Shown here: in pieces, positions 1,087 through 59,877 of the stretch | Position numbering within the stretch: the first letter of the stretch is position 1 | How the letters are laid out: the number at the start of each line of letters is the position of its first letter | From: a virus | IMG/VR virus record: IMGVR_UViG_3300006793_000017 | Coordinates: 27,814 to 91,813 of that record | Direction: 5' to 3' (one strand) | Length of the DNA stretch: 64,000 bases | Notes under the pieces: generated by a model | Databases searched by the model: none | The model's input: the letters and a program-made list of their open reading frames with translations, nothing else | What the model was told of the DNA's origin: nothing | Position numbers and translations under genes: made by a program

Positions 1087-2631
1087 TTATTTATCAATAT
1101 TCTTAATCCATTCATCGATTGTCCAGAATGGAGCCACAAGCTCTTTGTAGCGTTTTACGTTAGTATTTAGCACGTTTCTGCCTGTTTCAAGTTTATCTTC
1201 AAACGCAGTGCTAAAGTATGTGTTAGAAAATATATGTAATCCCTGTATTACTTGCATCCATGCTGCTGGCGAATAACCGTTAAAAACAGGCTCTACACCA
1301 ACAAGTCCTTGCCAATAATGATCCCAGTCTTTTAGTTTCATTGCTAATGATTCTGGAATACGTTCTGGGTCATGTATATGACTTTTCCAGAAGTCTGTGT
1401 CATCTCTACGTCCTCTAAAATGTAATGCAATAAAGTCTTTAATATCTTCATAAACTGTATTAACTCTATGATTAAATCTATCTCTGTACAGCGTGTGATC
1501 TCTTCTAGTAGGATCCCACAAATCTTGCATAGCATAAAGTGACTCACAAATAACTGCAATACCGTTTGCTTCTAATGGTTCTAAGAAACCACTGCTTAAA
1601 CCAATTGCAAAAACATTATTTTTCCAACTTTCTTTTGCTACTTCGGGTGTGTATGTAAATGAAGCAATAGGTTCTATATGTTCACCACATACACTTCTTG
1701 CTTCCTCTAATGCTTGGTCTGCTGTAATATAATTGTTGTCATAAATGTAACCATTACCAGATCTGTGTTGCAAATTAATATTCCAACGCCAACCATATTT
1801 CATTGCTGTTGCATTTGTTGTTACTGAATACTTGGGTTCGTCCCACCATGCAATAACAGAGTTGTGTGTAAAATGATCTGAGTAATCAGAGTATTCTGCT
1901 CCTAATTTTTTTCTAATTAGTAACTGTGCAAATCCAGTACAATCAACAAACCATTCTCCTTCAATTTCTCTGTTATCATCTAAAATTAAAGTTGTTATAT
2001 CACCTTTATCATTTTGTTTGGCATCTACGTATGTGCCTTCGATCAATGTAATATCTCTTTTAAGAGCCACTTCTTTCAAGTATGCTGCCGTTGCTCTACT
2101 CTCATTGTGCCACATAGCAATAATTGGTAGTTCTGATTTAGAAGCACCAAACGGAACTTTATTTTCTTTAATAAAATAGTTTGCATAGAATGCATCTGCT
2201 AAAGGAACATCATTACCTAGCAGTGTAGCCTGATATAAATTCTTTTGCCTTTCAGCTGCTATTATACCGGTAAATTGTCCTAAGTTCATATTAAAGACAC
2301 TAGCGTCAGGATTGTCTGACCATCCATCTAACCAAGGTGCATAATCTGTTTGCAAACAATGAATAAATTCACTACCTACTCCTGACCAATCTTTAAAACG
2401 TCCACCTAGTTTTGGTGTAGCATTTGCTTTAGCAACAAAGTCATCAAAATCGATATCAAGATACTTTAACATATCAACAAATGTAGTTGTACCGCTTTCA
2501 CCAGCAATAATAGGTGGCTTATTAGGATCTTCAACAACAGTAATATTCATACTAGGTCTTGTCTTTTTTATTAGTAGTGCAGTTAACCAGCCTGCAACGC
2601 CACCGCCTAATATAACTGTATTAGAGTTCAT
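1087..2631 (-). CDS. Flavin-dependent tryptophan-halogenase-like enzyme A
   Basis: A 514-residue homologue of FADH2-dependent halogenases (PrnA/RebH family; the cyanophage Syn10 enzyme VirX1 is a characterised viral member). Visible are the N-terminal dinucleotide motif ILGGGVAG (residues 7-14), the lysine matching the catalytic Lys of PrnA (K74 in ATPKLGGRF) and the EPLEA glutamate (E354). The WxWxIP signature reads GWRWNINLQ (281-289), so its final Pro is Asn. This is the most divergent of the three copies and also lacks the GEGSTEHW motif shared by the other two. It overlaps the upstream halogenase gene by 11 bases. No flavin reductase gene is seen nearby, so FADH2 would have to come from the host. 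The substrate is unknown. Confidence 0.88.
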   Translation of the reverse strand: MNSNTVILGGGVAGWLTALLIKKTRPSMNITVVEDPNKPPIIAGESGTTTFVDMLKYLDIDFDDFVAKANATPKLGGRFKDWSGVGSEFIHCLQTDYAPWLDGWSDNPDASVFNMNLGQFTGIIAAERQKNLYQATLLGNDVPLADAFYANYFIKENKVPFGASKSELPIIAMWHNESRATAAYLKEVALKRDITLIEGTYVDAKQNDKGDITTLILDDNREIEGEWFVDCTGFAQLLIRKKLGAEYSDYSDHFTHNSVIAWWDEPKYSVTTNATAMKYGWRWNINLQHRSGNGYIYDNNYITADQALEEARSVCGEHIEPIASFTYTPEVAKESWKNNVFAIGLSSGFLEPLEANGIAVICESLYAMQDLWDPTRRDHTLYRDRFNHRVNTVYEDIKDFIALHFRGRRDDTDFWKSHIHDPERIPESLAMKLKDWDHYWQGLVGVEPVFNGYSPAAWMQVIQGLHIFSNTYFSTAFEDKLETGRNVLNTNVKRYKELVAPFWTIDEWIKNIDK

Positions 2632-4126
2632 GGTTTACCTCCAAGTAACGATCTTTTAATATGTTTAATGCTTCTCGATGTGTGTAAATTTTTTCATCTG
2701 GCCAATCTGCTAATTGTTTTTTCATTAAATTTGTTAAACTTTCATTGTGTCTTTCTGCAAAATTTTCTTCCCAAAACTTTTTACAAGCATCATAATCAAA
2801 AAGATGTAAGCCGTGCATAACTTGTATCCAATTAAGATAACTGAACATAAGAGACGGATCAACAAAGTGTCCTGAATTAGGATAAGCAGTTTTAAATGAC
2901 TGTAGTGTTTCTTCGTTGAATGGTGTTAGAACAATACCTTCATCACACCAACGCCAAAACTCTGAGTCGTTACGTTTTGTAAGATAATGTATCTGAATAA
3001 AGTCAATAATGTTAGTAGCAATTAAATTCATTCTTTCATTAAATCTTTTTGCAACAGTATCATCATTTTTTCTATAGTACAATAAATTACCTACAAGTAT
3101 ATTAACTTGTTGTATTGTTGAACCTATTGATGTTGCTTCTAAAGGTTCTACAAACATAGCACTAAGCCCTAATGATACACAATTCTTTGTCCAAAATTCG
3201 TTAACATATCCAGCATTAAATTTTACACGTTTACCTATTTCTAAATCTTTAATACCTAAATGCTTTTCATAGTGCTGCGATACTTCATCATATGCTTGTG
3301 TTTCGTTAATAAATTGATCACTAAACACATAACCATTTCCATATCTATCTTGTGTAGGAATTCTCCAACACCAACCACTGCTTAGTGCAGTTGCTTCTGT
3401 ATAAGATGGGATGTCTTCAGTTCTAGCAGTAGGAAACGCAATAGCACTATTCATAGGAAGTTGATGTCCACAGTCTATCCATTTTTGTCCTAGTTTACTT
3501 GATATAACTCTATTAAATCCACTACAGTCAATAAAGAAATCACTAGCATGTTTTGTTCCAGCTTCGTCAACTAGCTCTTTAACATTACCTGTTTCATCTA
3601 AAATTACATCTTCAATATCAACATCTAATACTTCGATTCCTCTTTCTACACATAATCGTGTAAAGAATTCATTTAATTTATTTGTATCAAAATGGTATTG
3701 AGCAAAACTATCATGAAAAGGTTCAGCATGTAAACTACTAGCAGTTCTTTTCCAAACAGTATCAATAGGATCCCAATTTTCAGCAATCATTCTCATCCAT
3801 TGAACAGGTGCTTCACTAAGTGGATCTAGTGCTGCAAACTGTTCTGTTAAACTATGAAAATAATGTTTCCCATCTCCTTGCCAATTAGTAAACTTAATAC
3901 CGATTTTAAATGTTGCTCCTGTTTCTCTAACAATCGTTGGAACATCAACATCAATGTGGTGCATAAATCTTTGCCAGTGTTCTGTACTACCTTCACCAAC
4001 ACCAATAATACCAATCTTACTTGATCTTAAAAGTTTTAATTTTAATAGAGGGTGAGATTTTCTAAGTGTTAGTGCTGCAACTAATCCACTTGTTCCGCCA
4101 CCTAATATTGTTAGAGATTTTATCAT
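2621..4126 (-). CDS. Flavin-dependent tryptophan-halogenase-like enzyme B
   Basis: A 501-residue member of the tryptophan halogenase family. It has the FAD motif LGGGTSG (8-14), GVGEGSTEHW (42-51), the catalytic-type lysine K74 in ATFKIGIKF, the complete WxWxIP signature (GWCWRIP, ending at P257) and the EPLEA glutamate E330. Every family hallmark is intact, so this is the copy most likely to be a conventional halogenase, placing Cl, Br or I on an electron-rich ring. Its start overlaps the stop of copy C by four bases (ATGA), and its end overlaps copy A by 11. Copies B and C resemble each other more than A. The substrate is unknown; free tryptophan is not implied. Confidence 0.9.
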   Translation of the reverse strand: MIKSLTILGGGTSGLVAALTLRKSHPLLKLKLLRSSKIGIIGVGEGSTEHWQRFMHHIDVDVPTIVRETGATFKIGIKFTNWQGDGKHYFHSLTEQFAALDPLSEAPVQWMRMIAENWDPIDTVWKRTASSLHAEPFHDSFAQYHFDTNKLNEFFTRLCVERGIEVLDVDIEDVILDETGNVKELVDEAGTKHASDFFIDCSGFNRVISSKLGQKWIDCGHQLPMNSAIAFPTARTEDIPSYTEATALSSGWCWRIPTQDRYGNGYVFSDQFINETQAYDEVSQHYEKHLGIKDLEIGKRVKFNAGYVNEFWTKNCVSLGLSAMFVEPLEATSIGSTIQQVNILVGNLLYYRKNDDTVAKRFNERMNLIATNIIDFIQIHYLTKRNDSEFWRWCDEGIVLTPFNEETLQSFKTAYPNSGHFVDPSLMFSYLNWIQVMHGLHLFDYDACKKFWEENFAERHNESLTNLMKKQLADWPDEKIYTHREALNILKDRYLEVNHEL

Positions 4127-5610
4127 AACTTATAGGTAGTCCTTCCTTTTAATGTTTCTATTGCTTCTCTACATTTCATCCAGCCGTTACCTGGAGTTTG
4201 TGGTAGCATAGATAATTGTGCTGTATCTTCTGCACGATATTTACTATAACGCTCATTATATAATTTTTTAATGCTAGGAATATCAAACATACGCAATCCA
4301 TGCATAATCTGTATCCAATTTAAATTATCGTAAATTCTAAAACTTCCGTGCATACCATCTTCGGGTAATAATATTTGATTTACAAATTGTTTTTTAAAAT
4401 TTTCTAAGTTTTGTTTATTAAAAGGAGTAACTTCTATTTCATTTTTACACCAACGCCAAAACTTTGAATCTTCTCTTTGTGTAAAATAATGCAATTGAAT
4501 AAAGTCTAACACATTACTTAAACAGTCATCAAATATCCTATTGTATTCATTTATAGTTGCTTGATCGCCACGTTCCCAAGATGCTAGTGCGCCAACTAAT
4601 GCTCTTGATTGTTGTATAGTTGTTGAAATACTACTTGCTTCTAAAGGCTCTACAAAGTTACTGCTAAGTCCAATGCTAACACAGTTCTTAATCCAAAACT
4701 TATTAACCTTACCTGAAACAAAATTAATTTTTCTACCTATATTAATTGTATCTGAAAATAAAGATTGTATTTCTGCTATGGCTTCGTCTTCAGAAATAAA
4801 TTGATCACTAAACACATAACCGTTACCAAAACGTTCTTGTACAGGACTACGCCAATGCCAACCAGCACTTAATGCTTTAGAAAGTGTGTAAGGTGGTATC
4901 TCTTCTTGGCGTGGTGTTTGAAAAGCAATAGCACTATTCATAGGTAAAAATGATGACCAGTCTACCCATTCAGCACCTAGTTTACTTGCAATAACTCTTT
5001 TGAATCCACTACTATCAATAAAAAAGTCTGCGGTGTGTGTTCGTCTTTCTATGTCGACTACTGAGTCTACAAAGCCCCCGTCACCAATGTTAACATCTAC
5101 AACTTCTGTAGTTATAACGTTAATACCTGCTTCAATGCATCTCTTTTCTAAAAATGCATTTAATTTTTCACTATCAAAATGGAACTGATAGTAATCTTCA
5201 AATGGCGGACTTACATATCCTTGCATAGGTAAATCCCAATGCAACGATTCAGAATCAACACCTTCTGAAATCAATCTCATCAATGTATGTGCATCACCTG
5301 TGTATGCATCTACAAATATATATGGTTCTGCTAAACTGTGATAGTAGCTGGTTTTGTCACCGTGCCAATCTTCAAACTTAATACCAATCTTAATAGTTGC
5401 ACCACATTCTCTTGCAAGATCAGTCATTGTAATACCTACTGCATCAGCGAATCTTCTCCAATGTTCAGTACTACCTTCGCCAACACCAATAGTTCCAATT
5501 TTATCAGATTTAATAAGTGTAATGTCTAAGTTGTCAATAGACTTTTTATGATATAGTGCAGTCATTAGTCCAGCATTACCGCCACCTAGCACAAGTAATT
5601 TTTTAATCAT
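4123..5610 (-). CDS. Flavin-dependent tryptophan-halogenase-like enzyme C
   Basis: A 495-residue member of the same family, closely patterned on copy B. It has the FAD motif LGGGNAG (8-14), GVGEGSTEHW (42-51), K74 in ATIKIGIKF and E324 in EPLEASSI. The WxWxIP signature is altered to GWHWRSP (250-256; Ile to Ser). It is the first halogenase of the operon and overlaps the preceding 2OG oxygenase gene by four bases (ATGA). Lys and Glu of the halogenase active site are kept, so it is probably active, but the altered signature near the flavin/halide tunnel could change halide or substrate choice. Confidence 0.9.
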   Translation of the reverse strand: MIKKLLVLGGGNAGLMTALYHKKSIDNLDITLIKSDKIGTIGVGEGSTEHWRRFADAVGITMTDLARECGATIKIGIKFEDWHGDKTSYYHSLAEPYIFVDAYTGDAHTLMRLISEGVDSESLHWDLPMQGYVSPPFEDYYQFHFDSEKLNAFLEKRCIEAGINVITTEVVDVNIGDGGFVDSVVDIERRTHTADFFIDSSGFKRVIASKLGAEWVDWSSFLPMNSAIAFQTPRQEEIPPYTLSKALSAGWHWRSPVQERFGNGYVFSDQFISEDEAIAEIQSLFSDTINIGRKINFVSGKVNKFWIKNCVSIGLSSNFVEPLEASSISTTIQQSRALVGALASWERGDQATINEYNRIFDDCLSNVLDFIQLHYFTQREDSKFWRWCKNEIEVTPFNKQNLENFKKQFVNQILLPEDGMHGSFRIYDNLNWIQIMHGLRMFDIPSIKKLYNERYSKYRAEDTAQLSMLPQTPGNGWMKCREAIETLKGRTTYKL

Positions 5611-33237: not shown

Positions 33238-34020
33238 ATGAAAAGAATCGTACTAGTAACAGGCGGGTTTGATCCCTTACACAGTGGGCATATAGCCTAT
33301 TTCAAAGCAGCCAAAGAACTTGGTAACGAGTTATGGGTTGGTGTTAACAGTGACGAATGGTTAACAAACAAAAAAGGCATGCCGTTTATGCCTGTACAAG
33401 AAAGAATTGCTATTATTAAAGAACTTGCTGTAGTAGACAATGTTATTACATTTGATGATGATAAGGAAGGATCTGCATGTGGTGCAATAGAAGTAGCACT
33501 TAAAACATCTGAAACAATGCATGACATGATAGTGTTTGCTAATGGCGGTGATAGAGGTGAAGGCAATTCACCAGAAGTAACAAAATTTGCTGACAACAAA
33601 AGAGTAGAATTTAAATTTGGTGTTGGCGGAACAGACAAAAAGAACAGTTCAAGTTGGATTTTAGGAGAATGGAAAACACCTAAAACAAAACGCAAATGGG
33701 GTTGGTATAGAGTATTAGATCATCAACCTGAAAACAATTTTAAAATTAAAGAATTAGTAATTGAGCCAGGTGCATGTCTTTCTGATCAAAGACACTTTCA
33801 AAGATCAGAACATTGGTATGTACTAAAAGGCAAAGTTAAAATGCAAACAGAGTGGAACAACATTAGTGATACTGTAGAGCTTTTACCCTTAACAAAAGGA
33901 TATGATATTTCAGTAGGTACTTGGCATAAAGCAAGTAACCCCACAGATGATTTAACACACATACTAGAAGTTCAATACGGGGAAGCCTGTGTTGAAGAGG
34001 ATATTGAAAGACGTGACTAA
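33238..34020 (+). CDS. Fusion: nucleotidyltransferase (HldE/RfaE-C type) and sugar-phosphate cupin
   Basis: A 260-residue two-domain protein. Residues 1-130 are a cytidylyltransferase-fold domain: IVLVTGGFDPLHSGHIAYF with HxGH at 15-18 and VGVNSDEWLTNKKG, as in ADP-heptose or glycerol-phosphate nucleotidyltransferases. Residues ~140-255 are a cupin like type II mannose-6-phosphate isomerases: GWYRVLDHQ, SDQRHFQRSEHWYVLKG, GTWHKASNP. The pair would isomerise or bind and then activate a sugar phosphate. It is the first gene of the long sugar operon. The substrate is unknown. Confidence 0.82.
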   Translation: MKRIVLVTGGFDPLHSGHIAYFKAAKELGNELWVGVNSDEWLTNKKGMPFMPVQERIAIIKELAVVDNVITFDDDKEGSACGAIEVALKTSETMHDMIVFANGGDRGEGNSPEVTKFADNKRVEFKFGVGGTDKKNSSSWILGEWKTPKTKRKWGWYRVLDHQPENNFKIKELVIEPGACLSDQRHFQRSEHWYVLKGKVKMQTEWNNISDTVELLPLTKGYDISVGTWHKASNPTDDLTHILEVQYGEACVEEDIERRD

Positions 34021-41162: not shown

Positions 41163-42353
41163 ATGAGATATCACACTTTTACAGAAGATCTATTCATAGA
41201 TTTCTTGGACACGCTTGAGAGAAAATATTACTCAATGCAATACCAAGACCGTTCTGCTGCTCATAGTTTTTATGATTCTATACATCAAGGAAAACAATTG
41301 ACTGAGAAACAGGCCCAATATGTACTAAAGTTACTGTTCAAGTACCGTAAAGCAGTTGCAGATGAAATTGATTATAGAGATCATATGGAGATGCCTCAGT
41401 GGAAACAACCTTTCCGTGTTGTTGATATGTCTAAGAAAGTATGGATTGAAGAAATTAATAAAAAGCATATGATTGTGCTAAAATTTCCGTTTCATTTTAA
41501 AACAGAATTTGATGAGTTTATCAAAGAAGTTCGGTATGACATGGATAATGAGAATCGATGGGACGGAGAAAGAAAAGTTAGAACACTTTCTTTGTATGGT
41601 TACAATCTTGTATTACTCAAAGAATTTTTAAAAGTTAATGATTTTGAAATTGACCATGAATTTAATGATGTTGTTGAACGTGTAGAAGAAATTTATTGGG
41701 ATGTAAAGGAGTACAGCAAACTTAGTAAAATTATTGAAGGTTCAGTTGAATTAAAAAACGCTAGTGACAGTGCCAAAGTATATTTTAGAAAACATAAGAC
41801 TGGTAAAATAAACTCTGACTTAGTGTTAGCAAAATCTATGGGTCATATCTTTGGTGGTAAAAATAAAAACATTAACTCATGGAATAAAAAGATTGCAAGT
41901 GAAACAGGAAATCACTTTTGGATTAAAGATTTGAGTGATTTTATCAAATTGGGTTATTCTGTTGATGGCAGAATTGCAATTATCCTTGATCGAACAGGTG
42001 ATGTAAATAGTTGGTTATATACATTATGCGATACTATTGATAATTGCGGGTTTGATAGGAGTGATTTTAGAGTATGCTTCAGAGCCAATAAACATGCAGA
42101 TGGTGATCATTTGAATACATGGGTTAGAGAACAAGGATTTGGAGGAAAAATTGAAGGTGCTAAGTTTTTAATTTTTAATCAAAAACCTGCAAAGTGGTTG
42201 TTCAAAGACGAAAAAGATGTTACAATACTAGCAAGTAATAATTTATTTGCAACAGGTACTAGTATGATGAGAAACTTATTTAAAAATCACCCGTGTATTG
42301 TATACATCGGCGATATCGAACCAACAATTCAGGAGCCTTTAATTGAACTGTAA
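41163..42353 (+). CDS. Unknown protein upstream of uvsW
   Basis: A 396-residue protein. Its end overlaps the uvsW start. The N-terminal region contains SAAHSFYDSIHQGKQLTEKQAQYVLKLLFKYRKAV, a helical segment of a sort seen in DNA-metabolism proteins of marine phages. The C-terminal ~130 residues alternate strands and helices (RIAIILDRTGDVNSWLYTL; DVTILASNNLFATGTSM). The pairing with UvsW suggests a replication-repair role. No catalytic motif is recognised. Confidence 0.75.
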   Translation: MRYHTFTEDLFIDFLDTLERKYYSMQYQDRSAAHSFYDSIHQGKQLTEKQAQYVLKLLFKYRKAVADEIDYRDHMEMPQWKQPFRVVDMSKKVWIEEINKKHMIVLKFPFHFKTEFDEFIKEVRYDMDNENRWDGERKVRTLSLYGYNLVLLKEFLKVNDFEIDHEFNDVVERVEEIYWDVKEYSKLSKIIEGSVELKNASDSAKVYFRKHKTGKINSDLVLAKSMGHIFGGKNKNINSWNKKIASETGNHFWIKDLSDFIKLGYSVDGRIAIILDRTGDVNSWLYTLCDTIDNCGFDRSDFRVCFRANKHADGDHLNTWVREQGFGGKIEGAKFLIFNQKPAKWLFKDEKDVTILASNNLFATGTSMMRNLFKNHPCIVYIGDIEPTIQEPLIEL

Positions 42354-43794
42354 ACTTGTTATTAAAGATGAAGTAAACATTAAACTGGAAGGTCTTGATG
42401 TTGCAACACGTCGAAAGATTGCAAACAAGCTCAAGTATGATTTACCGTATGCAAGGCACATGCCAGCATATAAATTAGGTAGATGGGATGGAACTGTTAG
42501 TTTCTTTGGTATTGGTGGTACAGGGTATGTTGCACACTTAGATGTTATTTTACCTGTTATTGACGAGTCTGGTTATGAGATAGAAGTTATTGATCAGCGT
42601 CAAACTACAGACTTAAAATTTGACAAAATTACAGAAAACTACTGGGCTGACAAAGGTAAAGTTTGGCCTAAAGGACATCAGCTCGAAGGACAACCAATTG
42701 TTCTAAGAGATTATCAATATGATGTTGTTAATAAATTTTTAGATAACCCACAAAGTTTACAAGAAGTAGCAACAGGTGCAGGTAAAACAATTACTACTGC
42801 AACACTTAGTCATTTGTGTGAGCCATATGGACGTACAATTGTAATTGTACCTAATAAAAGTCTTGTTGTACAAACAGAAGAAGATTATATTAACTTAGGA
42901 CTTGATGTAGGTGTATACTTCGGAGACAGAAAAGAACTAGGAAAAACACATACAGTATGTACATGGCAAAGTCTTAATGTTTTAGATAAAAAAGGCAAAT
43001 ATGACGAAGCTCTTACACTTGCAGAATTTTTAGAAGGCGTTAATGCAGTTATTATTGACGAAGTGCATCAAGCAAAAGCAGATGTACTTAAAAAACTGTT
43101 AACAATCAATTTAAAAAATGCTCCTATACGTTGGGGACTAACAGGAACTGTACCTAAACAAGCATGGGAATTTCAAGGTATACTTGCAGGCATTGGTCCT
43201 GTTATTAATCAAGTTACTGCCCACGATTTACAAGAAAAGGATGTACTTGCAAAACTAGATATACAAATTTTACAGACAAAAAACATTGAAGAATTTAGAA
43301 ACTATCAAGAAGAATATACTTGGTTAGTTACAGACCCAGATAGAATATCGTGGATGTCTTCTAAGATAAAAGAATTTTCGTTAACAGGTAATACACTGGT
43401 GCTAGTAAACAGAATTGATACAGGTAAAAAAATTATGGAACAAATACCTGAAGCAGTTTTTGTTGCTGGTGAAATGAAACTTGCTGATAGAAAGGAAGAG
43501 TATGACGAAATTAAAACATCTGATGGAAAGGTTATCATTGCTACATATGGTGTGGCTGCTGTCGGGATTAATATCCCTAGGATATTTAATTTGGTGCTTA
43601 TTGAACCTGGTAAAAGTTTTGTTAGGGTAATTCAAAGTATCGGTAGAGGCATACGTAAGGCAGAAGATAAAGATTTTGTACAAATATGGGATATTACGTC
43701 AACATGTAAATATGCAAAACGTCACTTAACAGAACGTAAGAAGTTTTACAGAGAAGCGAAATATCCTTTCCAAATAACTAAAATAGACACATGA
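42343..43794 (+). CDS. uvsW: UvsW-type helicase
   Basis: A 483-residue superfamily 2 helicase. The start is TTG at 42343, supported by AGGAGC a few bases before and an 11-base overlap with the previous gene. Motifs: Walker A EVATGAGKTITTA (from residue 141), DEVH box in VIIDEVHQAK, WGLTGTVPK (motif III) and IQSIGRGIRKAEDKD (motif VI). The N-terminal PYARHMPAYKLGRWDGTVSFF domain is typical of T4 UvsW. It unwinds R-loops and branched DNA, switching origin-primed to recombination-driven replication. Confidence 0.94.
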   Translation: MNCKLVIKDEVNIKLEGLDVATRRKIANKLKYDLPYARHMPAYKLGRWDGTVSFFGIGGTGYVAHLDVILPVIDESGYEIEVIDQRQTTDLKFDKITENYWADKGKVWPKGHQLEGQPIVLRDYQYDVVNKFLDNPQSLQEVATGAGKTITTATLSHLCEPYGRTIVIVPNKSLVVQTEEDYINLGLDVGVYFGDRKELGKTHTVCTWQSLNVLDKKGKYDEALTLAEFLEGVNAVIIDEVHQAKADVLKKLLTINLKNAPIRWGLTGTVPKQAWEFQGILAGIGPVINQVTAHDLQEKDVLAKLDIQILQTKNIEEFRNYQEEYTWLVTDPDRISWMSSKIKEFSLTGNTLVLVNRIDTGKKIMEQIPEAVFVAGEMKLADRKEEYDEIKTSDGKVIIATYGVAAVGINIPRIFNLVLIEPGKSFVRVIQSIGRGIRKAEDKDFVQIWDITSTCKYAKRHLTERKKFYREAKYPFQITKIDT

Positions 43795-47962: not shown

Positions 47963-48123
47963 TGCTTAGTAAAGTAAAGCATTGGGCTGATGTATGTAAA
48001 ATACATTGGAAAGAGATTATATCTCTTGCTATTGCTTTACATTGGATTATGGACTTATTAATTATTATACCATTGTCATTAGCATTAGGCTTTTTCTTTG
48101 GTATTCAATTCGGAGAACATTAA
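47962..48123 (+). CDS. 53-residue membrane protein
   Basis: MLSKVKHWADVCKIHWKEII leads into a long hydrophobic stretch (MDLLIIIPLSLALGFFFGI). The start overlaps the dehydrogenase stop by one base and its own stop overlaps the next ATG by one base. Probably a single-span inner-membrane peptide of unknown role. Confidence 0.65.
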   Translation: MLSKVKHWADVCKIHWKEIISLAIALHWIMDLLIIIPLSLALGFFFGIQFGEH

Positions 48124-48791
48124 TGGATCATCCTATTGTCGACAAACTTGTTAGTTTAGTAGTCTGGCCTAAAGGCACCAAGCCGCATATTTTAGATATA
48201 GGTGCAAATCAAGGTCAGTTTGCAAGAGAGATGAGAGAGTGGTTCGGCAATGCATACATATATTCTATCGAAGCAAATCCTTATTGCGAAAAGAAACTAG
48301 GTAAACAAAAAGGTAGCGGTCAACTTAACGAGTATGAAATTGTTGCACTTGGAAAACAAGAAGGCGTATTAGATTTTTTTTATTCTGAAAGAAAGCCTGC
48401 AGGCAAAGGTGCTAGTTTTTATCCAGAGATAGAGCAAGGTGATTTATTATCTATGCAAGTGCCTGTAAGAAGATTAGATGATGTAATGTTAGGTAAACAC
48501 TTTCATTTAATTAAAATTGATGTACAAGGTGCAGAAAAAGATGTTATCGAAGGCGGAAGAACAATAATTGATAAAGCAAAATATGTTATACTTGAACTTG
48601 CAATTAAACCTTATAACGAAGGTGCTCCAACAGGAGTAGAGATGATAGAATTAATGAATAGTTTAGGATTTGGTTTGACCAATTGTATTACTGAACATAG
48701 AAGTTCAAACAAACAAGTATTACAGATAGACGGATTGTTTGAAAAAGGAATTGAGAACGCTACACAACCAATGGAGTATTTTAGTGTATAA
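48123..48791 (+). CDS. FkbM-family methyltransferase
   Basis: A 222-residue protein starting MDHPIVDKLVSLVV. An upstream in-frame extension is rejected because the small membrane gene occupies it and the ATG is coupled to its stop. SAM motif ILDIGANQGQFAREM, YSIEANPYCEKKL, LIKIDVQGAEKDVIEGG, YVILELAI. Likely O-methylation of a glycan. Confidence 0.87.
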   Translation: MDHPIVDKLVSLVVWPKGTKPHILDIGANQGQFAREMREWFGNAYIYSIEANPYCEKKLGKQKGSGQLNEYEIVALGKQEGVLDFFYSERKPAGKGASFYPEIEQGDLLSMQVPVRRLDDVMLGKHFHLIKIDVQGAEKDVIEGGRTIIDKAKYVILELAIKPYNEGAPTGVEMIELMNSLGFGLTNCITEHRSSNKQVLQIDGLFEKGIENATQPMEYFSV

Positions 48792-49530
48792 ATTGCATTA
48801 CGAAAAGCAAGTTCATTCACAGAACGGTGAAGACGGTATTATTGAAATGATGACTAATTCTATCATTAATCCAGACAAAACATTTTTAGAAATTGGTTGG
48901 GGTGATGGCGGAACAAATATGACCAACTACTTACAATATGAAAAAGATTGGAGCGGTGTAGGTGTTGATGCCAAAGAAGATCCTAAAGGTAAAGAGCGAT
49001 TTACAGATAAATTTAAGCACATAGCGTCTAAAGTTTATCCACACAACGCACAAGAATTTATGAAAGAAGTCCCTTATAACTGCGACTTTTTTAGTTTAGA
49101 TATAGATAGTTTCGACTATGCTATTGCACACGAATTATTTTTAAACGGCGGTTTTAGACCCAAAACAGTATGTGTAGAGTTTACAGATCAGTTTGGTCCT
49201 GACGTTGTTGCAAGTTTTCCATACGTATCTAGTATGCCTTGGAAGATACTTAGGAAAGGAAAGTTAACCACATCAGGCTGTAGTTTACAGAAGTGGAAAC
49301 TATTCTTTGAACATTTTAACTACTCGTACTTTGGGTTTGACTCGAGCAGCACTAACTGTTTCTTTTATAATCCACAAGAACTTGTTCCGGCACACTTAGA
49401 GAATTTGCCTATATTGGCAAATGCAGAAATGCAATATACCGATGACAGCAAAATGGTTGAAAATATTAATCAATCAGCTGCATGGAAACCGTTAGTGAAA
49501 CAGATTTACACTGACGACTTAGGACTATGA
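48784..49530 (+). CDS. Methyltransferase-like protein (SQNGEDGI type)
   Basis: About 248 residues. The start GTG at 48784 is chosen for the GGAG seven bases before and the short overlap with the FkbM gene. HSQNGEDGIIEMM, FLEIGWGDGGTNMTNYLQ, GVGVDAKEDP and FFSLDIDSFDY are typical of a SAM-binding family found in polysaccharide clusters. Catalytic details are not visible. Confidence 0.75.
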   Translation: MYKLHYEKQVHSQNGEDGIIEMMTNSIINPDKTFLEIGWGDGGTNMTNYLQYEKDWSGVGVDAKEDPKGKERFTDKFKHIASKVYPHNAQEFMKEVPYNCDFFSLDIDSFDYAIAHELFLNGGFRPKTVCVEFTDQFGPDVVASFPYVSSMPWKILRKGKLTTSGCSLQKWKLFFEHFNYSYFGFDSSSTNCFFYNPQELVPAHLENLPILANAEMQYTDDSKMVENINQSAAWKPLVKQIYTDDLGL

Positions 49531-49555
49531 AAACACAACAACAAAGGAAAACTAT

Positions 49556-49744
49556 ATGTTACACAAAATTAGTGATATGTGCAACAAAGTTGACGTCATA
49601 CACAGAAAATCTGAAGAGCTAAGAAAACTAAAGTATGACACACCAAAAGATGCACGAGACAACACACAGATTGACTTCCTCATTCAAGACATTCAAACAC
49701 TGTGTCGAGAAATTGCATACGATCGCGGCGAGTACAACAAATGA
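49556..49744 (+). CDS. Small helical protein
   Basis: A 62-residue protein: MLHKISDMCNKVDVIHRKSEELRKL..., all helix, two Cys. Ribosome site AAAGGAAAA. Its stop overlaps the ATG of the next methyltransferase. Unknown function. Confidence 0.65.
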   Translation: MLHKISDMCNKVDVIHRKSEELRKLKYDTPKDARDNTQIDFLIQDIQTLCREIAYDRGEYNK

Positions 49745-50292
49745 TATCAACTGATTATCAAGAAATGCTTTCGCTTATTCATAGCGGAACAAAGTTTGGA
49801 AAGCGTTCTAAAATACCAGAACATTTAAAAAAGTTTATATCCAAACAAGCAATTAGATCTATGATTGATTTTGGTTGTGGTAAAGGACAATTAATTGACG
49901 TGTTAAAACACAACTACCCTAGTATAGATATTATGGGGTATGATCCTGCCAATCCAAAATTTGATGTACCTTTAAAGAAAGTTGATTTAATATTTTCAAC
50001 TGATGTACTAGAACATATTGAGCCCGAACATCTTGATGCAACACTAGAAGAAATAAAAGAACACAGCACATACATATACCATTTGATCAGCTGTGCGCCT
50101 GCCAAACTTATACTGCCAGATGGGCGCAATGCTCATCTAATACAACAACCTCCAGAATGGTGGAAACAGAAGCATTTGGCTATGGGCTACGAAGTAATTA
50201 AAGAAGAATATAGAGAATTTAACAAATATTCAAAACAACTTGGCAAAAATATACCAGTTAAAAATTACTTCATTATGGCTAGGTTATCATAA
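49741..50292 (+). CDS. Class I SAM-dependent methyltransferase
   Basis: A 183-residue protein starting MISTDYQEMLSL; this ATG is coupled to the previous stop, so a longer frame is rejected. Motif I SMIDFGCGKGQLIDVL, IMGYDPANP, VDLIFSTDVLEHIEP. A Ubi/Cyp-type small-molecule methyltransferase. Last gene of the second sugar block. Confidence 0.85.
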   Translation: MISTDYQEMLSLIHSGTKFGKRSKIPEHLKKFISKQAIRSMIDFGCGKGQLIDVLKHNYPSIDIMGYDPANPKFDVPLKKVDLIFSTDVLEHIEPEHLDATLEEIKEHSTYIYHLISCAPAKLILPDGRNAHLIQQPPEWWKQKHLAMGYEVIKEEYREFNKYSKQLGKNIPVKNYFIMARLS

Positions 50293-50494: not shown

Positions 50495-50956
50495 ATGTCA
50501 AAATTAAAACTAAATGAAATACTAGCATCTGTGGATATGAATGCAAAACATATCTGGGATGAGCTTACAGAAGAACAACGTAAGAGTGTTGTTTTCTTCA
50601 CGCTTAATCGCTATATAAGCAACGTACAAGGGTCTAGAGAACTAAAGGAGCATTATGTACTGCTAGGCAATGAACGCTTTAATAAGAACCTTTTCCTGCT
50701 GTTAAACAAGCATAATAAATTACTATGGCAACTAGCATGTAGTTGTGGTCATGAAGAAAAGAATATTCATAGACACGAATGGTTAGGACTTAAAAGAGAA
50801 AAGAATAAGAAAGAAGAATTTTTAAAGAAGATATTTCCTGACATGAAAAGTGCAGACATTTCTGCATTAGCAGTAATGACAGATAACAAAGAAATTAAAG
50901 ATCACTGTAGAGGTCTTGGTTGGGATAAGAAACAGATCGATGCAATTAAATTATAA
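50495..50956 (+). CDS. 62: Clamp loader small subunit, gp62-like
   Basis: A 153-residue helical protein: LKLNEILASVDMNAKHIWDELTEEQRKS, then FFTLNRYISNVQGSRELKEHYVLLGNERFNKNLFLL, then KHNKLLWQLACSCG and HRHEWLGLKREKNK. This order (LNRY/QGS/NE..N..F/KH..L.W/H.WLG) is the gp62 pattern of marine T4-like phages. gp62 with gp44 loads the sliding clamp; gp44 is not in the window. Start at 50495; an in-frame start 18 bases upstream would overlap the lipoprotein. Confidence 0.72.
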   Translation: MSKLKLNEILASVDMNAKHIWDELTEEQRKSVVFFTLNRYISNVQGSRELKEHYVLLGNERFNKNLFLLLNKHNKLLWQLACSCGHEEKNIHRHEWLGLKREKNKKEEFLKKIFPDMKSADISALAVMTDNKEIKDHCRGLGWDKKQIDAIKL

Positions 50957-51623
50957 ATGTGATTACTGCGGCAAAGCATTTGCAAAGGAGAAAACTTTGT
51001 TTGTGCATGTGTGCGAGCCTAAAAGGAGGCACTTAGCAAAGAATGAAAAGCATGTGCAGTATGGCTTACTGACATTTAAAAAGTTTTACGAATTTAATCA
51101 ACCAAGTGCAAAACCTAAAACGTTTGATGACTTTGTTGGTAGTCCTTATTACAATGCATTTGTTAAGTTTGGTAGTTTTATGGTTAATACAAATCCTATA
51201 TACCCAGAAAGGTTTTTAGAGTTTGTAGTTAAGAGTGGCATCAAATTAGATCATTGGTGTAGAGATGAATTGTATGACACATACATAAAGGAATTATTAA
51301 AAATAGAACCAGCTGATGGTGCTATACAACGTAGTGTAAAAACTATGATGGACTGGGCAGATAACAACGAAGCGGAATGGAATCATTACTTTAGTTACTG
51401 TAATTTAAATAGAGCAACACATGATATTAAAGAAGGAAAGATTAGTCCTTGGATATTATTAAATTCAAAGGCAGCTAAGGACATGATGCAAAACATGTCA
51501 GATGAACAATTAAATATTATTGGGCCTGTTCTAGATCCTAAGTACTGGATGATTAGATTTAAGAAACTTCCAGCAGATGTAGAACTAGTAAAAGAAGTAA
51601 TCAAAGAAGGTAACATATCGTGA
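50940..51623 (+). CDS. C2H2-type zinc-finger protein
   Basis: A 227-residue protein. The N-terminal KCDYCGKAFAKEKTLFVHVC is a zinc finger (C-x2-C ... H-x-C). A basic linker and an all-helical domain follow (YPERFLEFVVKSGIKLDHWCRDELYDTYIKELLK, split by short loops). The start overlaps the gp62 end by 17 bases. It lies in the replication module, so a DNA-related role is plausible. No family known to me. Confidence 0.75.
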   Translation: MQLNYKCDYCGKAFAKEKTLFVHVCEPKRRHLAKNEKHVQYGLLTFKKFYEFNQPSAKPKTFDDFVGSPYYNAFVKFGSFMVNTNPIYPERFLEFVVKSGIKLDHWCRDELYDTYIKELLKIEPADGAIQRSVKTMMDWADNNEAEWNHYFSYCNLNRATHDIKEGKISPWILLNSKAAKDMMQNMSDEQLNIIGPVLDPKYWMIRFKKLPADVELVKEVIKEGNIS

Positions 51624-51799
51624 CAAAGACTAGAAAATTATTAAGCGGAAAAGAAGTACCACAACTTGAAAGAGTTGCTAACCTTAGTATAATAACAAAG
51701 TGTCCTGAGAAGTGGAAAATTGTTGATATGGAAACAGGACAAGAATACGTTGCTAGTGGAACACTTGAACTCTACAAGCAATGGAAAAGGATAAAATGA
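51620..51799 (+). CDS. Small protein, unknown
   Basis: 59 residues from a GTG that overlaps the previous stop: MTKTRKLLSGKEVPQLERV, then CPEKWKIVDMETGQEYVASG, a strand-turn-strand pattern, and a basic end. Coupled by overlap on both sides. Not recognised. Confidence 0.6.
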   Translation: MTKTRKLLSGKEVPQLERVANLSIITKCPEKWKIVDMETGQEYVASGTLELYKQWKRIK

Positions 51800-51882
51800 T
51801 AATAGCAATCTTATTTTTACTATCATGCTACGCATTGCCGATATATATGTTAGTAAAAATGAATAACGAAGAACCAAAGTAA
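51796..51882 (+). CDS. 28-residue hydrophobic peptide
   Basis: MIIAILFLLSCYALPIYMLV then a charged end. The ATG and stop both overlap neighbours by one to four bases (ATGA, TAATG), which argues for translation. A single membrane helix; function unknown. Confidence 0.45.
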   Translation: MIIAILFLLSCYALPIYMLVKMNNEEPK

Positions 51883-52448
51883 TGCCAGATATAGATATAG
51901 ATTTTGTAGACAGACAGAAAGCTCTAAAACATTTTAAGCATATTAGAGCAAGTCGTGTTGAAAACGGTAAACTAGTAAAACACAATACTGGTGTGTATAT
52001 GCATGAGGTTCCTGTTAGTGCTGAATTAAATTTGTGTAGTGTTCCGCATAAAGAAGCAGAAGATAAAGGTTATTTTAAATTAGACTTTCTTAATGTAAGT
52101 ATGTACAAAGATGTACGTAATGAAGAACACTTGCAACAACTAATAGATAAAGAACCTATATGGGATCTATTACAGCATGACGATTTCACAGATTTATTGT
52201 TCCATGTTAACGGTCATGGCGATATATTACGTAAGTTAAAGCCAACAAGTGTAGAGCAACTAGCAGCCGTACTTGCCATTATAAGACCTGCTAAACGCCA
52301 TTTAGTAGATGAGAGTTGGAATACTATTATGCAAGAAGTGTGGGAAAAGCCAACAGATGGTGCATACTTCTTTAAGAAATCACATGCTACTGCATACGCA
52401 GTTGCAGTTAAAGTGCAAATGAATTTGCTGTCAGAAGTAAAAGAATGA
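51882..52448 (+). CDS. Miniature DnaE-like (DNA polymerase III alpha) protein
   Basis: A 188-residue protein colinear with the catalytic core of bacterial DnaE but with long deletions. PDIDIDFVDRQKAL (DnaE: DxDxDF...R), KHNTGVYMHE (KHAGGVVIA), YFKLDFLNVSMYKDV (KFDFLGL), DILRKLKPTSVEQLAAVLAIIRP and FFKKSHATAYAVAV (FNKSHSAAYAL) occur in the right order. The three catalytic-type aspartates are kept (D5, D7, D68). PHP, most finger, beta-binding and OB parts are missing. Active polymerisation is doubtful at this size; it may be a regulatory or decoy relic. It sits between clamp loader and membrane genes. Confidence 0.78.
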   Translation: MPDIDIDFVDRQKALKHFKHIRASRVENGKLVKHNTGVYMHEVPVSAELNLCSVPHKEAEDKGYFKLDFLNVSMYKDVRNEEHLQQLIDKEPIWDLLQHDDFTDLLFHVNGHGDILRKLKPTSVEQLAAVLAIIRPAKRHLVDESWNTIMQEVWEKPTDGAYFFKKSHATAYAVAVKVQMNLLSEVKE

Positions 52449-55430: not shown

Positions 55431-56441
55431 ATGACTCTGGTATTAGATAAATTTCGAACACTCGTGCCTTCACGTGCTAAAGCTAGTCCTTCAGGTTGGA
55501 CAAGTTTTAACGCACCGTGTTGTTCTCATCGAGGTCATTCTCCAGACAAACGTAAGCGTGGCGGTTTGAAATTTGATATGGGTGTAGTGTATAACTGCTT
55601 TAACTGTAAGTACAGTGCAAGTTGGGAACCAGGTAGACCTTTATCAAATAAGTTCAAAAATTTATGTAGATGGTTAGGTGCTAACGAAGATGATATCAAT
55701 CAAATGATATTTGAAGCACTTAAAACTGAATCACCAGAGTACACTCCGCGAGAAGTTTCTAGCACAGTTACGTTTACGCCTAAAACATTACCAGAGGGTG
55801 CTTTAGCAATACGTGATTGGTTAGAAGCTGATCTCAACGAGGATGAAGAAGCTAGTCTAGCAGAAGTAGTTAAGTATCTACTAGAAAGAGATTGTGATCC
55901 TGTTAGCAAACACTTTTATTGGACACCACTTGAAGGATACAAAGATAGAGTCATTATCCCATTTTGGTACAAAGGAAGTATTGTAGGATCAACTGCTAGG
56001 AAAGTTAAAGATGGCAGACCTAAATACATTTCCGATCATCATCCACACTTTGTCTATAACGTTGACGAACAAAAGGAAGATCAGAAATATATATTTGTAA
56101 CAGAAGGACCGTTTGATGCACAAGCCATTGGCGGTGTAGCGTTGCTTACTAATAATATTCACGAGCAACAAGCAAGGATTATTAATAGTTTAGGTCAAGA
56201 AGTTGTCGTTATCCCAGATCAGGATAGTGCAGGTGTCGAGCTCATTAACAAGGCTGATGAGTGTGGTTGGCATGTTGCTTTTCCTAACTGGGGTAGTGAT
56301 GTAAAAGATGTTGCTGATGCAGTTAAACGTTACGGTAAGTTGTTTGTACTAGTAGACGCAATGAAAACAGCAGTGCAAGGCTCTATTAAGTTGAGTGTTG
56401 CTAAAAATAACTTTGAACATAAGTTGGAGAATATGCAATGA
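55431..56441 (+). CDS. 61: DNA primase, gp61-like
   Basis: A 336-residue primase. Zinc-binding residues near the N-terminus are CCSH (30-33) and CFNC (56-59). The TOPRIM domain has FVTEGPFDAQAIGG and VVIPDQDSAGVELI, the Glu and DxD metal sites. Length equals T4 gp61 (342 aa). It makes RNA primers with helicase gp41, encoded 2 kb on. Expression probably begins from a host-type promoter with almost no leader. Confidence 0.92.
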   Translation: MTLVLDKFRTLVPSRAKASPSGWTSFNAPCCSHRGHSPDKRKRGGLKFDMGVVYNCFNCKYSASWEPGRPLSNKFKNLCRWLGANEDDINQMIFEALKTESPEYTPREVSSTVTFTPKTLPEGALAIRDWLEADLNEDEEASLAEVVKYLLERDCDPVSKHFYWTPLEGYKDRVIIPFWYKGSIVGSTARKVKDGRPKYISDHHPHFVYNVDEQKEDQKYIFVTEGPFDAQAIGGVALLTNNIHEQQARIINSLGQEVVVIPDQDSAGVELINKADECGWHVAFPNWGSDVKDVADAVKRYGKLFVLVDAMKTAVQGSIKLSVAKNNFEHKLENMQ

Positions 56442-56582: not shown

Positions 56583-56819
56583 ATGAAGAATGAATTTCAA
56601 ATAGGGATGTTTGAACTACTCAAGAATCTACTAAAAGGAAACAGTGCTGTATTAGCGTTAATTTATACACTAGGACACATTGTAATAGCCATGACGGTAG
56701 TCAGTTTACTAACTGGCGCAAGTATTTGGGAAGCAGGATTAGTTGCTCTGGTTGAGCCAACTATTAATGGTTTCTGGTTTTATATTTTACATTCACTATG
56801 GAAAAAATATAACACATGA
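56583..56819 (+). CDS. DUF2061-like membrane protein
   Basis: 78 residues from the ATG at 56583, which has GAAAGGA before it; an ATG at 56562 is an alternative with no ribosome site. Two hydrophobic helices (LALIYTLGHIVIAMTVVSLLTG; EAGLVALVEPTINGFWFYILHSLW) match the DUF2061 pattern of HI..A....LTG then EP..N...(Y/F)..H..W. Function of the family is unknown. Confidence 0.7.
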   Translation: MKNEFQIGMFELLKNLLKGNSAVLALIYTLGHIVIAMTVVSLLTGASIWEAGLVALVEPTINGFWFYILHSLWKKYNT

Positions 56820-58282
56820 TAAGTTGGGGTATTTCTGCTAATAGTCACGATGCGGCACTTGCTGTATTCAAGAACAAAGAACTTTTGTTTGCGAGTCACA
56901 GTGAGCGTTTTAGTGGCATTAAGAATGATCCTCATCTTGATAAAAATTTATTAAACTACGCTCTTCACTATGGAGAGCCTAATGAGGTACATTGGTATGA
57001 AAACCCAACTAAAAAATCTTTACGACAACTTTATGCAGGTCAAGGATGGAACTTTCGAGAGAATAACGTTCGACAATATCTTGACCGGTATGGAGTGGAT
57101 TGTGATGTCCGTTATAATAGCCATCATCGCAGTCACGCTGCTGCTGGTTATTTTACCAGTGGCTTTAATAACGCTACTGTTTTATGTATCGATGCGATTG
57201 GAGAATTTGAGACGTTAACTGTCTGGGAAGCACAAGGCAACGATATGAAACAAGTGTGGAGTCAAAAGTATCCACACAGCATTGGACTTTGGTATAGTGC
57301 AATGACTCAACGTATTGGTCTTAAGCCTAACGAAGATGAATATATTTTAATGGGTATGGCTGCATACGGTGATAAAGGAAGATTGTATCACGCTATACTA
57401 GATGAATTTATTGATGTTAAATTTAAGAACAATAAACTAACTGTAAGACTAAAACAAAACTTGCATAGAGGTTGTAAAAATTGGAGACCTGATCTTAAAA
57501 CAGAACAAGACATGTACGACATTGCAGCCGCTACGCAATTAATATATGAACAATCATTACTTGAAATATTGTTGTATTGTAAATACAAGTGCAAAAGCAA
57601 AAACTTAGTTCTAATGGGAGGCTGTGCATTAAACTGTAGTGCAAACGGACAAGCACAAAGATTGTTTGATAACGTTTGGATTATGCCTAATCCTAGCGAT
57701 GCAGGTAGTGCAGTAGGTGCTGTTCTTTCAACTTATAACGAACATATAGAATTTAAATCGCCTTACTTAGGCTATAATATAGAAGGGAAGTATCCAGTTG
57801 AAAAAACACTCAACGCATTATTATCCTCCGGTATATGTGGAGTTGCTAACGGTCGTGCTGAATACGGTCCTCGTGCTCTTGGCAATCGTAGCCTTTTTGC
57901 TGACCCCAGAGGAGAGCATACTAAAGACAGAGTTAATGACATTAAAAAACGACAAAAATTTAGGCCATTTGCACCAGTCGTCCTCGAAGAACATGCCAGC
58001 GAATTGTTTGATGGACCAATGGGGCCTTATATGCAGTATACCGCCCGTTGTAAAGATACAGACAAGTATCCTGCAATAGCACATGTTGATGGTACATCAA
58101 GAGTTCAAGTAGTTAATAAGAAGCTGCACACGGGCTTGTATGAGCTTCTAAGACGGTGGAAAAGCGCCACAGGATGCCCTATGTTATTAAACACAAGTTT
58201 AAACATTAAAGGAAAACCTATGGTAAATGACAAAGTGGACGCAAAAGAGTTTGCTCTAAAGTATGGAGTGAGTGTATACTAA
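56816..58282 (+). CDS. Carbamoyltransferase (NodU/CmcH/TobZ family)
   Basis: A 488-residue protein. ISWGISANSHDAALAVF (H11, D12), NSHHRSHAAAGYF (101-113), VLCIDAIGEFET, LVLMGGCALNCSANGQ, then the C-terminal YrdC-like part with EYGPRALGNRSLFADPR and KFRPFAPVVLEE. It transfers a carbamoyl group from carbamoyl phosphate to a hydroxyl of a sugar or natural product. The ATG overlaps the DUF2061 gene stop. Its neighbours are replication genes, so the target cannot be read from context; the sugar blocks are the likely source. Confidence 0.92.
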   Translation: MISWGISANSHDAALAVFKNKELLFASHSERFSGIKNDPHLDKNLLNYALHYGEPNEVHWYENPTKKSLRQLYAGQGWNFRENNVRQYLDRYGVDCDVRYNSHHRSHAAAGYFTSGFNNATVLCIDAIGEFETLTVWEAQGNDMKQVWSQKYPHSIGLWYSAMTQRIGLKPNEDEYILMGMAAYGDKGRLYHAILDEFIDVKFKNNKLTVRLKQNLHRGCKNWRPDLKTEQDMYDIAAATQLIYEQSLLEILLYCKYKCKSKNLVLMGGCALNCSANGQAQRLFDNVWIMPNPSDAGSAVGAVLSTYNEHIEFKSPYLGYNIEGKYPVEKTLNALLSSGICGVANGRAEYGPRALGNRSLFADPRGEHTKDRVNDIKKRQKFRPFAPVVLEEHASELFDGPMGPYMQYTARCKDTDKYPAIAHVDGTSRVQVVNKKLHTGLYELLRRWKSATGCPMLLNTSLNIKGKPMVNDKVDAKEFALKYGVSVY

Positions 58283-58312: not shown

Positions 58313-58444
58313 ATGAGTAAGAAAAGAAACAAATTTGAAAGAAAGCTAGACGAATATAATCATACAATGGAATTGATTAGAACTATCGTTCCAATTATTG
58401 TACTAGGCTTACAAATTTATATTATAATAGAGTTAATAAAGTAA
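58313..58444 (+). CDS. 43-residue single-span membrane peptide
   Basis: A basic N-terminus (MSKKRNKFERKLDEYNHTME), then one hydrophobic helix (TIVPIIVLGLQIYIIIELI). Stop overlaps the helicase ATG by one base (TAATG), so it is probably translationally coupled to gp41. Confidence 0.6.
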   Translation: MSKKRNKFERKLDEYNHTMELIRTIVPIIVLGLQIYIIIELIK

Positions 58445-59877
58445 TGGCAAAAAATTACGATTACGAAGTACAAAAAGTTTATCTAGAAATGATGTTAGCA
58501 GATGCTGAGACATTTGTTAGATGTCAAGGTATATTTGATAGTACTTTGTTTGATAGAAAATTGCAAGAAGCGGCTGAGTTTGTAAACATGTATACTAAAG
58601 AGTATAACGTGTTGCCTGACTATGACATGGTTAATGCAAGTTGCAAAACAGATTTAAAACATCCAGGTGAAGTTAAAGAAGGACACACAAATTGGTTAAT
58701 GGATGAGTTTGAAAGTTTTACAAGACATAAAAGTTTAGAACGTGCAATTTTAAAAAGTGCTGACTTACTAGAACAAAACGAATATGGTGAAGTCGAAGGA
58801 CTTGTAAAAGAAGCAGTACAAATTGGACTAGCACGTGACATGGGTACAGATTACTTTTTAGATCCTAAAGCAAGACTTATGGGACTTAAAGATAAGAACG
58901 GACAAGTTACAACTGGTTGGGATAGTTTAGATAGAAAACTGTTCGGCGGATTTAACAGAGGCGAACTGAATATATTTGCAGGTGGTTCAGGTGCAGGTAA
59001 AAGTTTGTTCTTAGCAAACTTAGGTGTTAACTTTGCATTAGAAGGTCTTAACGTTGTTTACTTAACACTAGAACTTAGTGAAGCACTTGTTAGTATGCGT
59101 GTTGATAGTATGGTAACAGGTATTAGCACAAGAAACATTTTTAAAGATCTTGATGATGTAGAAATGAAAGTTAAGATGATTGGCAAGAAAGCAGGCATGA
59201 TGCAGATCAAATATATGCCTAGTGGAAAGACTGCTAATGATATTAGAGCGTATCTAAAAGAATATGAAATTAAAGCAGGCAAAAAAGTAGATGTATTATT
59301 AGTAGACTACTTAGACTTGCTTATGCCAATAGGTAAAAAGATTAGTGCAGAGAACTTGTTTGTAAAAGACAAGTATGTATCTGAAGAGCTACGTAACTTA
59401 GCAATGGAACTGCAAACTGTATTTGTTACAGCGGCACAGTTGAATAGAGGTGCAGTAGAAGAAGTAGAGTTTGATCATTCACACATCAGTGGTGGACTTA
59501 GTAAGATTCAAACAGCAGATAACGTATTTGGTATTTTTACAAGTAGAGCAATGCGTGAAAGAGGCAGATATCAAATACAATTAATGAAAACACGTTCAAG
59601 TAGTGGTGTAGGACAAAAAGTCGATTTAGGCTTTGACATTGACACGCTACGTATTGTAGACATAGATGAAGATGAACAAGAGTCTACAAACGGAGAACGT
59701 TCAGGCAATTCAAGTATTATAGATTCAATTAAAAGAAAAACAGCAACCACAGGCGAAAGCAACACACCCACTGATGATCCAACAGATGGCGCATCGGTCG
59801 GTAAGATTAGAGGCAAGGTAGAATCAACCAAGCTGAGAGAAATTTTATCGAACATGGGTAGTGATGAAGAATACTAA
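58444..59877 (+). CDS. 41: Replicative DNA helicase, gp41-like
   Basis: A 477-residue DnaB-family helicase. TGWDSLDRKLFGGFNRGELNIF leads to Walker A GGSGAGKS (180-187). VVYLTLELSEALVSMR, VDVLLVDYLDLLMP (Walker B), QTVFVTAAQLNRGAV and HISGGLSKIQTADNVFGI follow in family order. The C-terminal tail is Ser/Thr/Gly-rich. Works with primase gp61 as the primosome. Confidence 0.95.
   Translation: MAKNYDYEVQKVYLEMMLADAETFVRCQGIFDSTLFDRKLQEAAEFVNMYTKEYNVLPDYDMVNASCKTDLKHPGEVKEGHTNWLMDEFESFTRHKSLERAILKSADLLEQNEYGEVEGLVKEAVQIGLARDMGTDYFLDPKARLMGLKDKNGQVTTGWDSLDRKLFGGFNRGELNIFAGGSGAGKSLFLANLGVNFALEGLNVVYLTLELSEALVSMRVDSMVTGISTRNIFKDLDDVEMKVKMIGKKAGMMQIKYMPSGKTANDIRAYLKEYEIKAGKKVDVLLVDYLDLLMPIGKKISAENLFVKDKYVSEELRNLAMELQTVFVTAAQLNRGAVEEVEFDHSHISGGLSKIQTADNVFGIFTSRAMRERGRYQIQLMKTRSSSGVGQKVDLGFDIDTLRIVDIDEDEQESTNGERSGNSSIIDSIKRKTATTGESNTPTDDPTDGASVGKIRGKVESTKLREILSNMGSDEEY

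Follow-up and report, generated by a model that had tools for sequence, protein, structure and literature searches.

A phage gene for the C-terminal half of a predicted two-protein polymerase related to DNA polymerase III alpha

The window analyzed here, a 64,000-nucleotide stretch of a 91,813 bp (91.8 kb) record derived from an uncultured phage, carries on its plus strand an ORF of 188 residues (51882-52448) which, on the basis of the reading frame itself, profile matches and fold matches, is assigned to PHROG 11778 as the C-terminal half (hereafter the C-half) of a minimal DNA polymerase III alpha divided into two proteins. Its product begins MPDIDIDF, and its start codon overlaps the stop codon of a 28-residue leader-like ORF (51796-51883, plus strand; taATG), an arrangement that suggests coupled translation. 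The ORF is a real gene: relatives of similar length were found by tblastn in 90 phage records, a scan confirmed relatives in at least 547 IMG/VR stretches, and comparison with a 93%-identical relative gave a dN/dS of ~0.07, indicating purifying selection. The low dN/dS together with the wide conservation rules out a pseudogene.

The gene lies within a conserved replication cluster, the order of which is UvsW, a 150-residue gene, a 225/235-residue gene (PHROG 11058), the C-half, a structural gene, a primase and a DnaB/gp41 helicase. All members with assigned coordinates in the window are on the plus strand, i.e. the UvsW-like helicase (42343-43794; upstream in 42 of 80 IMG/VR loci), the 150-residue gene (50504-50956; 80/80), the PHROG 11058 gene, which encodes a C2H2-like finger (50946-51623; upstream in 80/80), the DNA primase (55431-56441; downstream in 73/80) and the DnaB/gp41-like replicative helicase (58444-59877; downstream in 60/80). 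The two genes immediately upstream (50504-51623) have no assigned function, and their presence at every locus makes them candidate functional partners of the C-half. A first-pass annotation of this DNA had described the C-half as sitting beside the phage clamp loader gene, a placement that our results do not confirm: neither upstream gene matched T4 gp62, gp44, gp45 or gp43 in hhalign comparisons, which had limited power because single-sequence templates were used, and no gp44 homolog was found in the 91.8-kb record. In relatives it is the gene for the second half of the split enzyme, described below, and not the C-half gene, that neighbors gp44.

Other genes were noted in this T4-like phage fragment. 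Three tandem tryptophan-halogenase-like genes occupy 1087-5610 on the minus strand (Pfam Trp_halogenase, E 2e-86 to 3e-104), and on the plus strand there are a cytidylyltransferase with a fused cupin domain of the mannose-6-phosphate isomerase type (33238-34020), an FkbM-type methyltransferase (48126-48791) among several methyltransferase-like ORFs at 48006-50292, and, between the primase and helicase genes, a NodU/CmcH-like carbamoyltransferase with both the N and C Carbam_trans domains (56816-58282).

The resemblance of the C-half to DnaE exceeds chance. The profile of PHROG 11778, annotated as 'DNA polymerase', matches it over its full length (residues 3-186 of 188, E 8.5e-67), and phrog_405, a profile of full-length phage Pol III, matches with an E value of 6.8e-9. 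Single-sequence searches gave a best E value of 0.036 against the PDB and, against Pfam, a DNA_pol3_finger match (E 0.007) below the cut-off. When a 50-sequence C-half profile was aligned with a small DnaE profile, residues 32-137 fell on residues 509-641 of E. coli DnaE (EcDnaE; E 1.8e-7), with residues 1-17 on 399-417 and residues 153-175 on 744-767, the latter two blocks each being weak alone, but colinear with the first. The best 13 PDB matches of an AlphaFold model of the C-half (pLDDT 86, pTM 0.71) are all Pol III alpha, several with probabilities of 0.98-1.00, and other matches were unconvincing. The TM score normalized by the query is only ~0.46, a low value that would be expected from the large deletions relative to Pol III alpha. 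The first-pass claims of a kinship with DnaE and of a preserved order of its palm motifs are upheld, and the finger motifs keep their order as well. In a separate observation on full-length phage DnaE, an HNH endonuclease ORF interrupts the genes of Bacillus phage KLEB27-3 (L207, 3298-7668) and Thomasclavelia phage TR-TP2 (L211, 3547-8172), which suggests mobile introns.

The C-half shares with E. coli DnaE (1160 residues) the DxD palm strand, the KxDFL motif bearing the third aspartate, the finger RP motif and the KSH motif with the steric gate, all following one another as in the E. coli enzyme, but does not have the single-chain, full-length Pol III alpha architecture, since only palm and finger parts align over its 188 residues. 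The profile alignment reveals no counterpart in the C-half of EcDnaE 642-743, nor of the PHP, beta-binding, OB and C-terminal regions; most of the fingers are missing, and the thumb is cut down to a few residues. The active site of E. coli Pol III alpha comprises D401, D403 and D555, with H760 as the steric gate (PMC8485763). On alignment, the corresponding catalytic residues of the C-half are D3, D5 and D68, and H168 corresponds to the steric-gate histidine. The claim that three catalytic aspartates are preserved therefore holds with respect to the presence of the trio, but not to its assignment as D5, D7 and D68; D7 aligns with E. coli D405 and, although invariant, lies outside the catalytic trio. 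In the window, the codons for D3, I4 and D5 (the catalytic DxD) are at 51888-51896, those for K66, L67 and D68 (EcDnaE K553 to D555) at 52077-52085, those for R135, P136, A137 and K138 (the IRPxK finger motif, with RPGP at 639 in EcDnaE) at 52284-52295 and those for K166, S167 and H168 (the KSH motif) at 52377-52385, all on the plus strand. In a family-wide alignment of 15 C-halves, with 33-65% identity to that of the window, D3, D5, D7, H34, K66, D68, R135, P136, K138, H168 and Y172 are invariant in all 15.

The presence of all three catalytic aspartates in a compact, confidently predicted fold could be taken to indicate a free-standing minimal nucleotidyltransferase acting as a single 188-residue chain, as had been suggested. 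We regard this as highly improbable, because a palm of the Pol-beta-like type found in DnaE requires a GS motif as well, which in the E. coli enzyme (GPGRGS at 359) lies upstream of the DxD. The C-half starts at the DxD strand and so is without the GRGS nucleotide-binding element of the palm, which in its family is carried by another protein. Moreover, pLDDT is at its lowest (65) in the first 10 residues of the model, among which are D3 and D5, as is expected if a neighboring part of the fold is missing.

In relatives, the GRGS element is present on a second protein of ~170 residues encoded elsewhere in the genome (hereafter the N-half; PHROG 11127), such that the palm is distributed over two genes. 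The N-half was located in phages CBB (gp328), 121Q, Atu_ph07, Phosso, PA5oct and XacN1, and those N-halves tested match Pfam PF07733 above the cut-off. All of the ~110 N-halves retrieved have the GRGS motif, and nearly all terminate at EF(L/F)(K/R), i.e. just before the point at which DnaE continues with PDxDxDF. Profile alignment places residues 75-172 of the N-half on EcDnaE 274-392, so that in E. coli numbering the N-half extends to 392 and the C-half runs from 399; profile searches of PDB sequences gave the same two-part tiling and seam with the Taq and Mtb DnaE enzymes. The AlphaFold model of the N-half has a pLDDT of 92, and its best 13 PDB matches are Pol III alpha. The statement that everything else of DnaE is gone is thus not upheld, because relatives encode the GRGS portion of the palm elsewhere in their genomes, as a protein of its own.

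In all 10 of the named genomes that were tested, those of phages CBB, 121Q, Atu_ph07, Phosso, PA5oct, SCTP-2, Vibrio 2.275, XacN1, CM1 and Slicko01, both halves are present, as is a family-B polymerase (PolB), which was also found in six IMG/VR relatives. Among 16 IMG/VR records with a C-half (a count that includes the window's record and leaves out G011, which was searched for the N-half only), five have an N-half, and these are exactly the five with gp44, from which the N-half gene is 1.2-2.6 kb distant. The N-half was found neither in the window, using a regular expression for the GS motif, nor in the whole 91.8-kb record. The same record has no homolog of gp44 or of PolB/gp43, which marks it as a fragment; the missing N-half is therefore expected and uninformative, and the phage itself may well encode one. 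The first-pass expectation that a T4-like phage should encode its own gp43 holds for the 10 named relatives, in that each has PolB. A 280-kb relative (G006) has PolB and no N-half that we could find, the position of which, judging from the spacing in other records, would fall at or beyond the end of the contig.

In the reverse direction, 13 of 17 long records with an N-half have a C-half, and none was found in the other four (G017, G018, G019 and G031), even with a broader profile; one of these, G019 (L124), is 543 kb long. Pairing of the halves is hence not proven to be universal. Evolutionary distances among the N-halves track those among the C-halves (distance-matrix r = 0.81 for n = 15; p 2e-4 by permutation), a result inseparable from shared phage ancestry, which alone could explain it. 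No fused N-C gene was found in IMG/VR with two DNA patterns beginning GAATTY, which returned only C-halves and one chance match. A DnaQ-type exonuclease was also considered as a constant companion of the C-half and rejected, because it scored above the cut-off in only 8 of 17 records, the window's record not being among them.

The first-pass annotation raised the possibility that the protein interferes with host replication, for example by binding the tau, clamp or primed template of the host. Such a protein would be a DnaE mimic, competing for these targets in the manner of a dominant-negative fragment. In favor of this reading, the C-half does look like a fragment of a host enzyme and the phages carry a PolB replicase of their own. 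The regions of DnaE that bind the clamp and tau, and the PHP region, however, all lie outside of the matched blocks, and a decoy would have no need of the catalytic residues and steric gate that are invariant in the family. Further points against interference, which we consider very unlikely, are that every named genome tested has the N-half too, that the C-half gene lies within the phage replication cluster and that relatives infect very diverse hosts. The retention of nucleotide-binding and catalytic residues by the two halves, along with the replication cluster, makes a function in phage DNA synthesis the better reading.

We therefore propose that the ORF probably encodes the C-half of a minimal, two-protein Pol III alpha-like polymerase, a putative accessory enzyme working beside the PolB replicase. 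The C-half would supply the three catalytic aspartates, reduced fingers and the steric-gate histidine, and the N-half (~170 residues), from a gene tens of kb or more away and near to gp44, would supply palm helices and a GRGS corresponding to the DnaE motif that lies beside the triphosphate. The Pol-beta-like palm would thus be shared by two chains, with the cut falling after the GS motif and before the DxD strand; the halves are predicted to reassemble non-covalently to give one active site, formed only on assembly, which adds dNTPs to a primed template. Because the thumb is lacking, as are the PHP, beta-binding, OB and C-terminal domains, the core formed by the two halves is expected to be poorly processive alone. 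Its most likely role is an accessory one, in filling gaps, in repair or in extending primers and handing them off. Primer extension and hand-off would also fit the primase-helicase neighborhood, and are a task that B. subtilis DnaE performs for PolC (PMC5627055).

Against a two-chain polymerase are the missing thumb, which may be needed for holding the primer-template, the N-half not being seen in this phage's record, the four N-half records in which no C-half was found and the lack of a fusion among the sequences searched. Given that the thumb, much of the fingers and clamp binding are missing, and that the C-half gene adjoins two conserved genes without assigned function, the halves might assemble but act in vivo other than as an accessory DNA polymerase, i.e. 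as a catalytically weak replisome scaffold or as a nucleotidyltransferase acting on an RNA end, a protein or a modified nucleotide. We consider this unlikely, because neither the steric gate that selects dNTPs nor the RPxK motif of the fingers varies in the family, which favors a template-directed DNA polymerase.

Our results are consistent with those of Iyer et al., who in 2021 predicted that group 2.2 jumbo phages having a family-B polymerase encode, at distant loci, the two parts of a minimal Pol III alpha, an N-terminal NTP-binding protein and a C-terminal Mg2+/template-binding protein, and who proposed for it a role in the synthesis of one strand or in repair (PMC7824862). The window's ORF is a clear member of that family, with the same length, split and (in relatives) PolB companionship, the difference being that the only source of it is a 91.8-kb fragment, where no N-half is seen. 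What we add to the earlier work is the precise position of the seam, a mapping of residues that extends to the steric gate, a co-occurrence test in which gp44 serves to gauge how complete a record is, and the conserved neighborhood; our searches of open-access papers found no experimental study of the split enzyme. Proteins annotated earlier that we identify as GRGS N-halves are CBB_328 (gp328; noted as a 172-residue 'truncated' Pol III alpha subunit, PMC5259590), Atu_ph07 gp316 (PMC6102473) and, by family name only, PF07733 in the marine jumbo phage cluster PGC_A (PMC9123017); these had been read as truncated alpha subunits or a domain hit. In that marine survey, PF07733 was the only common distinguishing gene of the largest jumbo cluster, being present in 51.9% of members.

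On balance, we favor the view that the active site is built from two distantly encoded proteins, neither of which would be active alone, and that T4-like jumbo phages have in it a specialized second polymerase beside the family-B replicase; its core would be the smallest known in the C-family. Because the two genes are small, reconstitution is directly testable. If the halves, which together comprise ~360 residues, do work together, they would define a minimal C-family core that can be divided through its active site. Iyer et al. further proposed that the split enzyme might be similar to an ancestral form of Pol III (PMC7824862). If the halves do form a working enzyme, hundreds of jumbo phages would gain a second, as yet unstudied, DNA polymerase.
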